In this document: positions 3,757-26,218 of the stretch, one piece after another
Numbering within the stretch: position 1 is the stretch's first letter
How the letters are laid out: the number at the start of each line of letters is the position of its first letter
Assembly (NCBI GenBank): GCA_030066785.1
Contig: JASJAZ010000020.1
Coordinates: 1-43,786 of the forward strand
Source of the DNA: Desulfobacterales bacterium
GTDB lineage: Bacteria > Desulfobacterota > Desulfobacteria > Desulfobacterales > JASJAZ01
Direction: 5' to 3'
DNA length: 43,786 nt
Notes under the pieces: generated by a model
Told to the model about the DNA's origin: nothing
Database searches by the model: none
Seen by the model: only the letters and a program-made list of their open reading frames with translations
Position numbers and translations under genes: made by a program

Positions 3757-3789
3757 AAAGGGGTTACAGCCATAACTGTAACCCCTTTT
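3757..3789 (+). terminator. Rho-independent terminator after the CorC-type gene
   Basis: A perfect 13-bp inverted repeat (aaaggggttacag / ctgtaacccctttt, 3757-3769 and 3776-3789) with a 6-nt loop ends in a T-run. It lies 31 bp after the stop codon. The A-run at its other side means it can also stop leftward transcription coming out of tRNA-Val. Confidence 0.85.
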
Positions 3790-8171: not shown

Positions 8172-8205
8172 AAAAAGGCCACCGGAAACTTCCGGGTGGC
8201 CTTTT
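8172..8205 (-). terminator. Rho-independent terminator of etfBA
   Basis: An 11-bp stem (aaaaggccacc 8173-8183 with ggtggcctttt 8195-8205) and a short inner pairing, followed on the minus strand by a T5 run. It lies about 70 bp past the etfA stop. Confidence 0.8.
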
Positions 8206-20252: not shown

Positions 20253-21902
20253 TTACAATGCTTTGACTTTGTAAACCTGGTTGGAATCCGGATCAATAAC
20301 ATGGACACCACAGGCAACACACGGATCAAAAGAATGCACGGTTCGTAAAACTTCCAGCGGCTTTTTGGGATCGGCAATTGGGGTACCGATAAGCGCTTCT
20401 TCTACCGGGCCTCGCTTACCTTTTTCATCGCGCGGACCGAGGTTCCAGGTGGAAGGAACAACATATTGATAATTTTTAATTTTCCCGTTTTCAATATGCA
20501 GATAATGACTTAAAGCACCCCGGGGTACGTCATTCAAACCGACACCCATGGCTTTTGCCGGCATATCCCAGGATTGATACGTCTCTGTATCACCGCTTTT
20601 GATGTTTTCCACCAATTCTGTAACCCAACCCTGCATCGCTTCGCCGATTACAAGACACTGAACACCCCGTGCCGCCGTGCGGCCGAGGGTTGAGAACAGT
20701 GCTGTTGCCGGAATTCCCAAATCGGTCAGAATTTTATCCACCACGGCCTTAACCTGTTTGTGACCGCTGCCATAAGCCACCAAAGTGCGGGCCAGCGGGC
20801 CGACCTCACATGGTTCGCCCTCATAACGCGGTGCCTTGAACCAGGAGTACTTACCGTCGCCTGGTTTGTATTTGGGATCTTCTTGGAGGGGATTGGTTTC
20901 GCCTTCGTAGGGGTGCTTGGCGCCGTTGCCCTTGTACCAGGCCCGGGCAACATGCTCGGAAACTTTCTTTTCTTCCGCCATTTGCACACCAGCTAGATCG
21001 CGTTTCATGACCACGCCGCGGGGCATAAACAAGCTTTCCGGCTCCTGATCCGTCAGGGGAAAATCACCCCAGGCCAACTGGTTGGTGGTCCCGCCGTAAG
21101 CGCCCCAATCCTTGTAAAAGGAAGCCACCGCTAATAAATCGGGGATATAAACATTTTTAATGAATTCTTGTGATTCTTTGGTAATATAAATGAATTCCGC
21201 GATTCTATCCGGGGTGAGATCTTTTACACACGTTATGCCGCCAACGACCAAGGACTGTGGATGGGGATTTTTCCCACCAAATATGGCGTGCAACCGTGCC
21301 GTTCTGGCTTGCAGCTTTAAAGCTTCAATGTAATGTGCAGCGGCCATTAAGTTGGCTTCGGGCGGCAGCTTATAAGCTGAATGGCCCCAATAAGCATTGC
21401 TGAAAGGCCCTAATTGGCCACTGTCGACAAAGGTCTGTAAGCGTTGCTGCACATTTTTAAAATAGGTAGAGCCTCCCCAAGGTGCATTGCTGACATTGTC
21501 TGCCAGGGCGGCTGTTTTCTTGGGATCTGCTTTTAAAGCACTGACGATATCCACCCAATCCAACGCGTGCAAATGATAGAAATGGACTAGATGGTCATGC
21601 TGCACTTGGGCCCCATGCAACAGGTTGCGAAGGATTCGCGCGTTTTTGGGTATTTTAACACCAACCGCATTTTCGACTGCCCTCACCGAGGACAACGCAT
21701 GGATGTACGTTCAGACCCCGCAAGATCGCGCCACAAAGTGCTGCGCATCGCGCGGATCTCGCCCTTCCAAAATTAATTCAATGCCTCGAAACATTTGACC
21801 CGAGCTCCAGGCATTGACGACCTTGCCTCCGGCCACCTCAACCTCGATTCGCAGGTGCCCCTCTATTCTGGTGATTGGATCAATTGTTATTCGTTGTGCC
21901 AT
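20253..21902 (-). CDS. [NiFe] hydrogenase large subunit with a predicted selenocysteine (in-frame TGA) at residue 64
   Basis: 549 residues if the single in-frame TGA at 21711-21713 is read through. The protein is homologous on both sides of the stop: it reads HFVARSCGV, then UGA, then [18 protein letters not shown]. This matches the group 1 large-subunit L1 motif RxCGVCTYxHA, with the stop exactly at the second cysteine, which in solved enzymes bridges Ni and Fe. The C-terminal motif DPCVACGVH keeps both cysteines, and the 15-residue tail starting VID is the usual protease-removed extension. The enzyme should oxidise H2 in the periplasm with the Tat-exported small subunit, passing electrons to c-type cytochromes. 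If the TGA is not recoded, the gene is dead; intact flanking sequence and the SECIS-like stem argue against that. Confidence 0.85.
21676..21696 (-). promoter_or_regulatory. Candidate bacterial SECIS hairpin
   Basis: Within the large-subunit mRNA, GTCCTC and GAGGGC pair around a three-base GGU loop (21685-21687). Outer U-A and G-U pairs extend the stem to 9 bp. Exactly 23 nt separate the UGA from the loop. A guanine at the start of the apical loop and a spacing of roughly 16-37 nt are what the published bacterial SECIS model expects for SelB binding. The stem lies in a conserved coding stretch (SSVRAV), so chance pairing must be excluded by comparing homologues. Confidence 0.65.
21711..21713 (-). 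other. In-frame TGA, predicted selenocysteine codon
   Basis: Minus-strand context is TGC GGG GTC TGA ACG TAC. It replaces the TGC/TGT expected for the second cysteine of the CGVC motif. A single C-to-A change or base-call error would also give it; the hairpin just downstream favours recoding. Confidence 0.7.
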
Positions 21903-21949: not shown

Positions 21950-22894
21950 CTAGATTTCTTCATAAAAAGGGGTAAATTTATCCCAGAAGCCAGGTTCGCT
22001 GCAACCAATGCAGGGGTGTCCGGCTTCAACCGGCCAGCTGGTCCCATCATTAAATTTGGCCACCGGGCAGTTATTGTAAGTCTCAGGGCCCCGGCAACCG
22101 ACCTTGTAAAGACAATAACCCATGGCCGCCTCTTCGGACCCGAATTCTTCGACAAGTTCGTCGTTTTCAAAATGGGAACGGCGCGGACACTGATCGTGAA
22201 TGGTTTTGCTGTATGCAAACAATGGACGCCCTAAATCGTCTATGGCGGGTAATTTGCCTAAAAGTAAATAGTTAACAACGGTTCCAACAAAATTGATGGG
22301 GTTGGGCGGGCACCCAGCGATGTTAATGGTCTTTATGCCCAGGGCTTCGCCAACACCTTTATAGCCACCCGGGTTCGGGGCGGCCGCAGGAATGTTGCCA
22401 TATGCAGAGCACGATCCAATACAGATCGTGGCGGCAGCATTGGGAATAACCTCTTTGGCGATGTCAAGAAAGGATCGACCACCGACTTTACCGTAGCCGC
22501 CATCATACTTGGTGGCAACCGCACCTTCCGCTACACAGATAAATTTACCTTTGTACTTTTTCATCGCCATGTGCAACTGGTCTTCGGCCTGCTGCCCAGC
22601 AGCTGCCATGATGGTTTCATGATACTCAACGGAGAGAACTTCAAGGACGAGATCATCGACATACGGATATTGACTCCGCAAAACTGATTCGGAGCATCCG
22701 GTGCATTCGCCGAAATGGAGCCAGATGACCGGCGGTCGCTGTTTGGGGGCTGCAAATACTTCCGCCACTTTGGGAACAAACGATGACGACAGTCCCATGG
22801 TCGCCGTCAAAAACGTACAGAACTTCATGAAGTCCCGACGCGAGGCTCCTTTTTTTTCCAGTCTTTCGTAAAATTCTTTCTTTTCTTTTTCCAT
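21950..22894 (-). CDS. [NiFe] hydrogenase small subunit, Tat-exported
   Basis: 314 residues. The small subunit carries the Fe-S relay from the active site to the electron acceptor. A Tat signal (SRRDFMKF, then a hydrophobic stretch) is at about 18-50. The proximal cluster begins with GECTGCSES. CIGSCSAYGNIPAA and the C-terminal HDQCPRRSHFE, CLYKVGCRGPETYNNCP and HPCIGCSEPGFWD segments supply the other cluster ligands. No C-terminal membrane anchor is present, so a soluble periplasmic enzyme is expected. The ATG at 22894 is 5 nt after GGGAGG; an upstream GTG overlaps the ribosome binding site and is unlikely. The large subunit starts 47 bp later. Confidence 0.96.
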   Translation of the reverse strand: MEKEKKEFYERLEKKGASRRDFMKFCTFLTATMGLSSSFVPKVAEVFAAPKQRPPVIWLHFGECTGCSESVLRSQYPYVDDLVLEVLSVEYHETIMAAAGQQAEDQLHMAMKKYKGKFICVAEGAVATKYDGGYGKVGGRSFLDIAKEVIPNAAATICIGSCSAYGNIPAAAPNPGGYKGVGEALGIKTINIAGCPPNPINFVGTVVNYLLLGKLPAIDDLGRPLFAYSKTIHDQCPRRSHFENDELVEEFGSEEAAMGYCLYKVGCRGPETYNNCPVAKFNDGTSWPVEAGHPCIGCSEPGFWDKFTPFYEEI

Positions 22895-23056
22895 CGGCAC
22901 CTCCCTGATGCTAAAATGGGTAATTTTGGTTTTTTCCTAATTCGTGGAAATATGTCAGCAACTGGTCAACAACTTTTCCAGATCACATGAAACTATTCGA
23001 ATTCCAGCCCCCCAAATGCTGCATATTTTCCGGCCATTTGTGCAACAACAGTGATA

Positions 23057-23102
23057 CCAAAAACTAAAAGGTATCGAGGCACATGACTCGATACCTTTTA
23101 GT
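23057..23102 (-). terminator. Leader terminator or attenuator upstream of the hydrogenase operon
   Basis: A perfect 16-bp inverted repeat (actaaaaggtatcgag 23063-23078, ctcgataccttttagt 23087-23102) with an 8-nt loop is followed on the minus strand by a T-run. It lies about 70 nt downstream of a good minus-strand promoter and about 165 nt before the small-subunit start. No gene ends here, so it would either attenuate the hydrogenase mRNA or end a small RNA. TAAAAGGT occurs a second time just 5' of the stem and could compete for the 3' arm. Confidence 0.7.
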
Positions 23103-23176
23103 AATTAGACCTTTTAATCCATCAAACCCATTCCAAAAAAATTCAACTCAAGTGCGCTGGCATCGCGTGAACACGA

Positions 23177-23205
23177 GATATAGGCGATTGACGGATTTAT
23201 GTCAA
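23177..23205 (-). promoter_or_regulatory. Sigma70-type promoter of the hydrogenase operon
   Basis: The minus strand has TTGACA (23200-23205), a 17-nt spacer and TATATC (23177-23182). The predicted start is near 23170, which gives a leader of about 275 nt. The 22895-23567 gap holds no convincing gene; besides this promoter it contains the leader hairpin and, near its right end, a palindrome before the thioredoxin gene. Confidence 0.6.
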
Positions 23206-23516
23206 CGCTAAATAATATTTCATCAAAATAGGGGCGATTTTTTCAAACAATATCGGTATGTATGGCATCGTATCAGCAACGAGGGAATTCTTGCAAGAAT
23301 TTGCAAAGCGCATCGTCTGACATTCTTGCAACAATAAGCGATCGAATCATTAGGAAATTTAACGTCAGCTAATAAACCGCCTAAAATATCCAAGCTGCTG
23401 CCAGTGGAATACGAGGCCGTTTGACTCCACACGCCAACTGCTATACAGTCGGAATAAAGTGAGAATTTTTGGTAAACTTTTCCAGTCGAAGCAACAACTA
23501 ATTTAATATCATATTG

Positions 23517-23534
23517 GTTCAACCGGTATTGAAC
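23517..23534 (+). promoter_or_regulatory. Palindromic site GTTCAA-N6-TTGAAC before the thioredoxin gene
   Basis: Perfect 6-bp arms with a 6-nt spacer, ending 33 bp before the chosen start of the thioredoxin-like gene. This is the geometry of a dimeric regulator site, but the regulator is not recognised. Confidence 0.35.
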
Positions 23535-23567
23535 GGTTATGATCGAGTAGTTTTTAACGGTTTTCTT

Positions 23568-24068
23568 ATGGACAAACAAAGCCAGATGAAAAAACTTTGT
23601 GTCACACTGGTAAGTACCATCCTGTTATTTTCCTTAAGTTACCCAGCAACTGTTTGCGGGTCTGGAATTGTTGTGAAGCAATTAGAGCTTGCCAGGCTTG
23701 ATGAGATGATTCAGAGCCAGGATCAACGGGCAATGCTGGTGGTCATGGCCGCCTGGTGTGGCCCCTGTCGTAAAGAGTTGCCGACCTTGGTAAAATTGTA
23801 TGACAAATACAAAGATCAAGGTCTAAAAATTGTCGGCATCAGTGTTGATGTCAACGGGCCCCAAGCCATGCAGCCCATTGTGGATAAGGCTAAAGTCAAT
23901 TTTCCCGTTTATTGGGTGGGCGAATCGGCAGTGAAAAAATATAAGGTGTCCGGCATTCCTTTGATTTTGTTGGTTCGCGATGGTGAGATTATTGAAAAAA
24001 TTATGGGCAATCGTCCAGAGAAATATTTAGATAAAAAAATAAAAACGTTATTGAAAAACACCGGATAA
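23568..24068 (+). CDS. TlpA/ResA-like exported thioredoxin-fold protein
   Basis: About 166 residues. An N-terminal signal peptide or anchor (KKLCVTLVSTILLFSLSYPATVC) is followed by a thioredoxin fold with the WCGPC redox site (C64, C67), the ISVDVNGP segment typical of TlpA/ResA, and the cis-proline loop SGIPLI. It probably acts outside the cytoplasm as a disulfide reductase. The start is ATG 23568 or ATG 23586; neither has a strong ribosome binding site, and a TTG further up is unlikely. It converges on a polyferredoxin and a CXXC membrane peptide that may supply its electrons. Confidence 0.85.
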   Translation: MDKQSQMKKLCVTLVSTILLFSLSYPATVCGSGIVVKQLELARLDEMIQSQDQRAMLVVMAAWCGPCRKELPTLVKLYDKYKDQGLKIVGISVDVNGPQAMQPIVDKAKVNFPVYWVGESAVKKYKVSGIPLILLVRDGEIIEKIMGNRPEKYLDKKIKTLLKNTG

Positions 24069-24090
24069 AAACCGTCGATCTGCAATTCGG

Positions 24091-24119
24091 CCGACTGTCT
24101 AAGCAACAGCCGGTTTTTT
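24091..24119 (+). terminator. Terminator of the thioredoxin gene
   Basis: CCGACTGT/ACAGCCGG stem with one mismatch and a 7-nt loop, followed by T6. It overlaps the last codons of the convergent polyferredoxin gene. Confidence 0.55.
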
Positions 24120-24989
24120 CTTGTCAGGCTTATTTTTCCCTTGAGAAATACCCCCAATCTCAAATGATATCGCATCAAATTGGCACGATTGCCGCAGACA
24201 TTTCAGGCAACGGATGCAATTCGTGCTGTTGGCGGTCTCATAAAACCGCACACCCATAGGGCAATCTTGAAAGCAGGCTTGGCAGCCGGTGCATTTATCA
24301 GGATCGTGGGTTAGCCGAAATAAGCTGGAACGATTAAATAGGCCATAAATGGCACCCAATGGGCAGGCTACCCGGCAAAAAGGGCGCTGACTGATGACCA
24401 TCCAGCCGAGAAAGACGATTAAAATTAACAACTTATTATAAAAGAGCACTCCCAGCAAAGTCCGTAAATCCGGCACCAATAGCAACATGGGAATACCTGC
24501 TTCCAAGGTCCCGGCGGGGCATATAAATTTGCAAAACCACGTCATACCGTAACCCAAATCATCGACGACCCAAAACGGCAAAATAAAAATAAATAGCGCC
24601 AAAAATATAAACTTTACGTTTGTCAGCCGTTGGGAAATCCTGAATTTAGGCCCGGGAATCTTGTAAATCAATTCCTGCAGAAAACCAAAAGGACACAACC
24701 AACCACACGGTAGGCGTCCCACCATAGATCCCATCACACCTAATCCACCAATGACATACAAACCAAAATGATAGAAACCGCTCTGTAGCCCTGTTCGCAG
24801 CGAGGCCATAAAGTGCTGGATTGCTCCAAGTGGACAGGCGCCGATGGCTGCGGGACATGAATAGCAATTCAGGCTGGGCAAACAAACTGATTTCAATGGG
24901 CCCTGATAAAGATTGTGTGTAAGGGGAAACTTCCAATAGGCATTGCTGAGCATTGTGGCAATTATCTGGAACCAGCGGCGGATATCCAT
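24099..24989 (-). CDS. NapH-like integral membrane polyferredoxin
   Basis: 296 residues. Hydrophobic helices alternate with cysteine motifs: C36/C42/C45/C52 near the N-terminus, CGWLCPFG and CKFICPAG, then FCRVACPLG. Two 4Fe-4S ferredoxin motifs close the protein (CTGCQACFQDCP and CIRCLKCLRQSC). NapH, CcoG and related proteins move electrons across or at the membrane. The ATG at 24989 lies just after the stop of the 46-residue CXXC gene, so the two are co-translated; a TTG 30 bp upstream is rejected. A role in passing electrons to the nearby TlpA-like protein is inference. Confidence 0.85.
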   Translation of the reverse strand: MDIRRWFQIIATMLSNAYWKFPLTHNLYQGPLKSVCLPSLNCYSCPAAIGACPLGAIQHFMASLRTGLQSGFYHFGLYVIGGLGVMGSMVGRLPCGWLCPFGFLQELIYKIPGPKFRISQRLTNVKFIFLALFIFILPFWVVDDLGYGMTWFCKFICPAGTLEAGIPMLLLVPDLRTLLGVLFYNKLLILIVFLGWMVISQRPFCRVACPLGAIYGLFNRSSLFRLTHDPDKCTGCQACFQDCPMGVRFYETANSTNCIRCLKCLRQSCQFDAISFEIGGISQGKNKPDKKKPAVA

Positions 24990-24991
24990 GT

Positions 24992-25132
24992 TTAACCGAT
25001 CCCGATGCAGCTTAAACAAATTTTTACCGCTTTCTCCAAAACAACCGGCACTTCACCCAGATTAATTCCGGCAATCATCAAAACCGTAAAAAAAACCATC
25101 AAGATAATCGGCAGGACTTTCTTGGCGTGCAT
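24992..25132 (-). CDS. Small CXXC membrane peptide (CD1871A-like)
   Basis: 46 residues. A basic N-terminus (MHAKK), one hydrophobic helix (about 6-23), a GEV turn, and a C-terminal CLSCIGIG with the CXXC at residues 39-42. The ending resembles the short CD1871A family of CXXC-containing proteins that I recall next to 4Fe-4S membrane proteins. AAGGAT lies about 8 nt before the ATG, and the stop is 2 nt before the polyferredoxin ATG. The function of the family is unknown; a membrane thiol/disulfide relay is a reasonable guess. Confidence 0.75.
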   Translation of the reverse strand: MHAKKVLPIILMVFFTVLMIAGINLGEVPVVLEKAVKICLSCIGIG

Positions 25133-26183: not shown

Positions 26184-26192
26184 GATATTCAA

Positions 26193-26218
26193 AAACCCGC
26201 TTGTCAAAGCGGGTTTTT
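26193..26218 (+). terminator. Terminator of the tRNA-Ser transcript
   Basis: aaacccgctt/aagcgggttt stem (10 bp) with loop gtca, followed by a T-run, 10 bp past the second tRNA. Confidence 0.85.

Follow-up and report, generated by a model that had tools for sequence, protein, structure and literature searches.

Upstream of the [NiFe] hydrogenase operon of a Desulfobacterales bacterium, a predicted promoter is followed by a long perfect hairpin, and the question raised by this locus is whether that hairpin stops transcripts of the operon before its first gene is reached. We favour this reading, with a probability of about 0.55: a promoter predicted at 23205-23177 and an intrinsic terminator at 23102-23063, placed in a 276-nt leader, would stop most hydrogenase transcripts early. 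Coordinates are those of the window, that is, the whole 43.8-kb stretch of DNA that was analysed, which belongs to a genome of 4.6 Mb in 278 contigs (assembly about 93% complete).

The hydrogenase operon and its upstream region

The operon is encoded on the minus strand. The small subunit (hydA, carrying a TAT signal) occupies positions 21950-22894, with its ATG at 22894 and the Shine-Dalgarno sequence GGGAGGT, and the large subunit positions 20253-21902; 3' of the latter are maturation genes for a HycI-type protease, HypF and HypD and an AIRS-domain hypE-like gene. An intergenic stretch of about 0.6-0.7 kb separates the hydrogenase from a divergent thioredoxin/ResA-like gene (23514-24068, plus strand, ATG probably near 23566). 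Further upstream, a NapH-like ferredoxin gene (25019-24099, minus strand) runs toward the hydrogenase and is preceded by a gene of 157 aa at 25693-25220. Since many relatives have a homologue of this last gene directly upstream of the hydrogenase, several of them along with the tRNA pair found on its far side in the window, the ferredoxin and thioredoxin-like genes (23514-25019) that separate the two here appear to have been inserted.

The promoter TTGACA-N17-TATATC (-35 at 23205-23200, -10 at 23182-23177) is the top-scoring sigma-70-type site in the region 22895-23260, with 10 of 12 hexamer matches and an optimal spacer; the runner-up has 9 matches. From its position, transcription is predicted to start near 23170 on the minus strand, as proposed in the initial annotation, giving a putative 5' UTR of 276 nt (22895-23170). 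A generic promoter scan over 4 kb yielded no excess of matches over shuffled sequences, so the match alone proves little. However, TTGACTT is enriched upstream of the orthologous small subunit in other genomes (26 of 88 regions, 2.8 expected), which lends support to the promoter call. The interval between 23057 and 22895 contains no good promoter (the best is CTGACA-17-AAAAAA), and the only candidate sigma-54 site in the leader, TGGCCGGAAAATATGCA, was discarded for its wrong spacing. On the plus strand, a promoter-like TTGACG-N17-AATAAT (23188-23216) overlaps the hydrogenase promoter; both sites have the inverted repeat TTGAC-N8-GTCAA in common and might be co-regulated.

The hairpin (23102-23063, minus strand) has a perfect 16-bp stem, with arms at 23102-23087 and 23078-23063, and an 8-nt loop. 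It begins about 68 nt past the predicted start and lies 168 nt ahead of the small-subunit ATG. Its stem is followed directly by a U-run of modest length, UUUUU (23063-23059), whose first U is the final stem base and which ends in GG. Folded on its own, the hairpin forms all 16 pairs at -22.6 kcal/mol; a stable uninterrupted stem with a U-run immediately after it is the form of an intrinsic (Rho-independent) terminator. The features of promoter and hairpin go beyond a chance match. For instance, the terminator-like score of the region, which counts flanking pairs too, is -27.8 kcal/mol, the best of 30 shuffles reaching -16.4, and folding of the 121-nt leader gives z = -3.4. The perfect stem and U-run within about 70 nt of the predicted start, as described in the initial annotation, are thus confirmed.

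Eight perfect inverted repeats of at least 9 bp (loop 3-12) occur in the window, as compared with 0-2 in shuffled windows, and the leader hairpin is the longest of them. The repeats at 3757, 8173, 20207 and 26191 are located 3' of genes or tRNAs, as would be expected of terminators, indicating that such a shape is terminator-like in this DNA. The leader hairpin is of the same style as the bidirectional intrinsic terminators at 8173-8205 and 26191-26218, with their A-tract and U-tract flanks. However, while these two lie 3' of a gene or tRNA, the leader hairpin is located between a promoter and a gene. The hairpin has one copy in the genome; a repeat or mobile element was rejected as its origin, the leader being single-copy in its genome and without matches in plasmids.

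The sole minus-strand ORF ending just upstream of the hairpin (23579-23223, 118 aa, TTG start) overlaps the divergent thioredoxin-like gene, and neither a Pfam match nor a homologue in the loci of relatives was found for it. It was treated as spurious, and the assertion that no gene ends at the hairpin holds for any detectable gene. A perfect 16-bp stem and U-run, 3' of the only good promoter and with no detectable gene ending there, is what argues for a premature terminator. Transcription from the promoter would produce the leader, most polymerases would stop after the hairpin and U-run to release an RNA of about 113 nt (23170 to about 23058, a minor correction of the roughly 110 nt suggested earlier), and the hydrogenase mRNA would come from the fraction that reads through.

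Hydrogenase leaders of related genomes

A total of 94 distinct regions upstream of the orthologous small subunit, mostly from Desulfobacterales genomes and none from another member of the window's own family, were compared. The hairpin sequence has no match in any relative and is unique to the source genome, and convincing matches in a DNA search with the leader were limited to the start-codon and ribosome-site region. Across nine near leaders, conserved RNA structure amounted to no more than a trivial helix of 5 pairs over the ribosome site. The motif TTGACTT is found 245-350 nt before the ATG in the nearest relatives, suggesting that a long leader is common to near kin, and 84-200 nt before it in others.

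The architecture of promoter, long leader and terminator recurs in some of these genomes. Locus L081, which groups as sister to the window sequence in the tree (support 91/93), has a promoter and then a terminator with eight T that ends 167-171 nt before the ATG, the corresponding distance in the window being 168. Loci L052 and L055, whose leaders are clearly homologous yet different, both retain promoter and terminator, and L095 has a strong leader terminator and a less clear promoter. These leaders share with the window an upstream promoter-like site, a long leader and a single terminator-like hairpin ahead of the small-subunit gene, but their hairpin sequences are unrelated to it and, except in L081, the positions differ. 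In contrast, L057, the closest relative (small subunit 90% identical), has the promoter but not the terminator, and most hydrogenase leaders of the order are devoid of one. In L052 and L055, a second hairpin (GGACGG...CCGTCC) is present some 20-45 nt upstream of the ATG of the small subunit, just ahead of the ribosome site, and is retained between both leaders despite a changed loop.

Good terminators (at most -14 kcal/mol, strict U-run) were detected in 15 of the 94 leaders; shuffled leaders gave 5.3 and the reverse strand 5. How far hydrogenase leaders exceed those of other genes varies with the filter. With the 53 regions upstream of sat and dsrA in these genomes as the reference, the strict U-run filter gives no clear difference (15/94 versus 4/53), while a looser one does (24/91 versus 3/53; Fisher p 0.002). 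This enrichment is weighed lightly because some of the matches are the upstream genes' own terminators (for instance, in L072, L099 and L094). Overall, the comparison gives moderate support to a recurrence of leader terminators in the hydrogenase operon of relatives, rather than proof of their conservation. The promoter TTGACTT is shared by near kin and leader terminators by some relatives, whereas the hairpin sequence itself is shared by none.

Possible role of the predicted leader terminator

The main rival to a premature terminator is an insulating one, which would protect the hydrogenase from minus-strand transcription that arrives from the ferredoxin gene by way of thioredoxin-like antisense, the predicted promoter being weak or elsewhere. 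In its favour, neither a terminator-like site nor a long perfect repeat was detected where the two genes converge, near 24068-24099, and both genes appear to have been inserted next to the hydrogenase. Nevertheless, we regard this explanation as rather unlikely: with a good promoter in between, an insulating terminator would cut the operon's own transcript as well, and L052 and L055 possess promoter and leader terminator although the inserted genes are absent. A premature terminator might also stop ferredoxin read-through, since that gene points at the hydrogenase and has no terminator-like site behind it. The distance from promoter to terminator would also suit a stand-alone gene for a small RNA of about 113 nt, the operon itself then relying chiefly on a different promoter 3' of the hairpin; in other lineages, TTGAC promoters do lie just 84-115 nt before the ATG. 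This alternative is unlikely, given that no Rfam family or conserved sequence in relatives corresponds to such an RNA and that the downstream interval offers no better promoter than the poor match cited above. More doubtful still is a reading in which the inverted repeat does not terminate transcription and instead stabilises the 5' UTR as a hairpin or, at the DNA level, binds a dimeric regulator. Its 16-bp perfect symmetry, with the arm sequence identical on both strands, would fit this reading, but a regulator site with several targets should have further copies in the genome, and an extended perfect stem with a U-run right after it resembles the terminators found 3' of genes in the window. 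Premature termination remains the best reading, although a hairpin found in no relative, its absence from L057 and a U-run of just five followed by GG count against it.

Whether such termination is conditional is a separate matter. The initial annotation had proposed attenuation, and a terminator located between promoter and first gene is indeed what the sequence positions give, the promoter being a predicted one; the conditional switch is the part of the proposal that is weakly supported. It had also pointed to a second copy of TAAAAGGT as a simple antiterminator. This copy exists, at 23116-23109 (minus strand), and the chance of any stem-arm 8-mer recurring within a 70-nt leader is about 0.01. 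However, its duplex with the 3' arm (-11.3 kcal/mol) is about half as stable as that of the two arms (-23.8 kcal/mol), an equally good pairing with the 3' arm arises in 14% of shuffled leaders, and the 3' arm is transcribed only after the competing 5' arm. An alternative pairing of leader CGATGCC with GGTATCG of the 5' arm (-11.4 kcal/mol, equalled by 2% of shuffles) is similarly weak, and both candidates were set aside on that account; the fold of leader plus 5' arm is not better than that of shuffles.

No Rfam match near the gathering score (riboswitch, T-box or other family) was found in the leader, and the loci of 12 relatives gave only tRNAs. A search for a leader peptide with regulatory codons returned only the mini-ORFs MPAHLS* and MGLMD*, which show neither clear ribosome sites nor codon runs. 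Regulation of the operon by the leader terminator is thus weakly supported, because the antiterminator has about half the terminator's stability and neither an Rfam leader nor a leader peptide of any conviction was found. A self-contained RNA switch is not visible in the leader, so regulation would need a trans-acting factor: a protein, a trans RNA or the state of the polymerase could possibly disturb the hairpin. Constitutive damping, a small RNA or a block to read-through are possible alternatives. Nothing in the leader supports H2 or selenium as the signal, both of which had been suggested.

Transcription attenuators, such as those of trp type, the TRAP-controlled trp leader and terminator riboswitches, likewise consist of a promoter, a short leader and an intrinsic terminator before the first gene. 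Unlike them, the hydrogenase leader lacks a strong competing antiterminator, a leader peptide with regulatory codons and a known ligand domain. If regulated, it would be one further case of a common bacterial control device, and it would place a further control point after initiation in the expression of [NiFe] hydrogenases from relatives of sulfate reducers, enzymes for which our literature search found no report of attenuation. If the terminator is not conditional, expression of the operon would still be set by read-through.

An in-frame TGA in the large subunit

Codon 64 of the large subunit is an in-frame TGA (21713-21711, minus strand), located where the N-terminal RxCGxC motif has its second Cys, a residue that is normally a bridging Ni-Fe ligand. 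The motif reads RSCGV-U-TYIH, while the C-terminal DPCVACGVH is normal and stays Cys. For hydrogenase alpha (large) subunits, the two reviews searched list only UxxC (PMC13188914, PMC9312934), which is taken to be the C-terminal motif, and selenocysteine at the N-terminal motif was not found in them. Judging from the sequence, selenocysteine is possible at codon 64, a position different from that of classical [NiFeSe] hydrogenases. A broader scheme, very unlikely as a whole, would be that hydrogenase leaders of a Desulfobacterales clade carry fast-diverging conditional terminators, at which a trans factor, perhaps linked to selenium or redox, decides read-through and so tunes an operon that needs selenocysteine at this unusual ligand position. 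The source genome encodes selB; no tRNA-Sec above the Rfam family cut-off was found in the assembly, which is about 93% complete. Among the fetched loci, which overlap in part, the codon is TGA in 55 motif matches and Cys in 45, and in nearly all cases the TGA is followed by the near-invariant CTGTCCTCGGTGAGGGCAGTCGA, a SECIS-like hairpin with a GGU loop.
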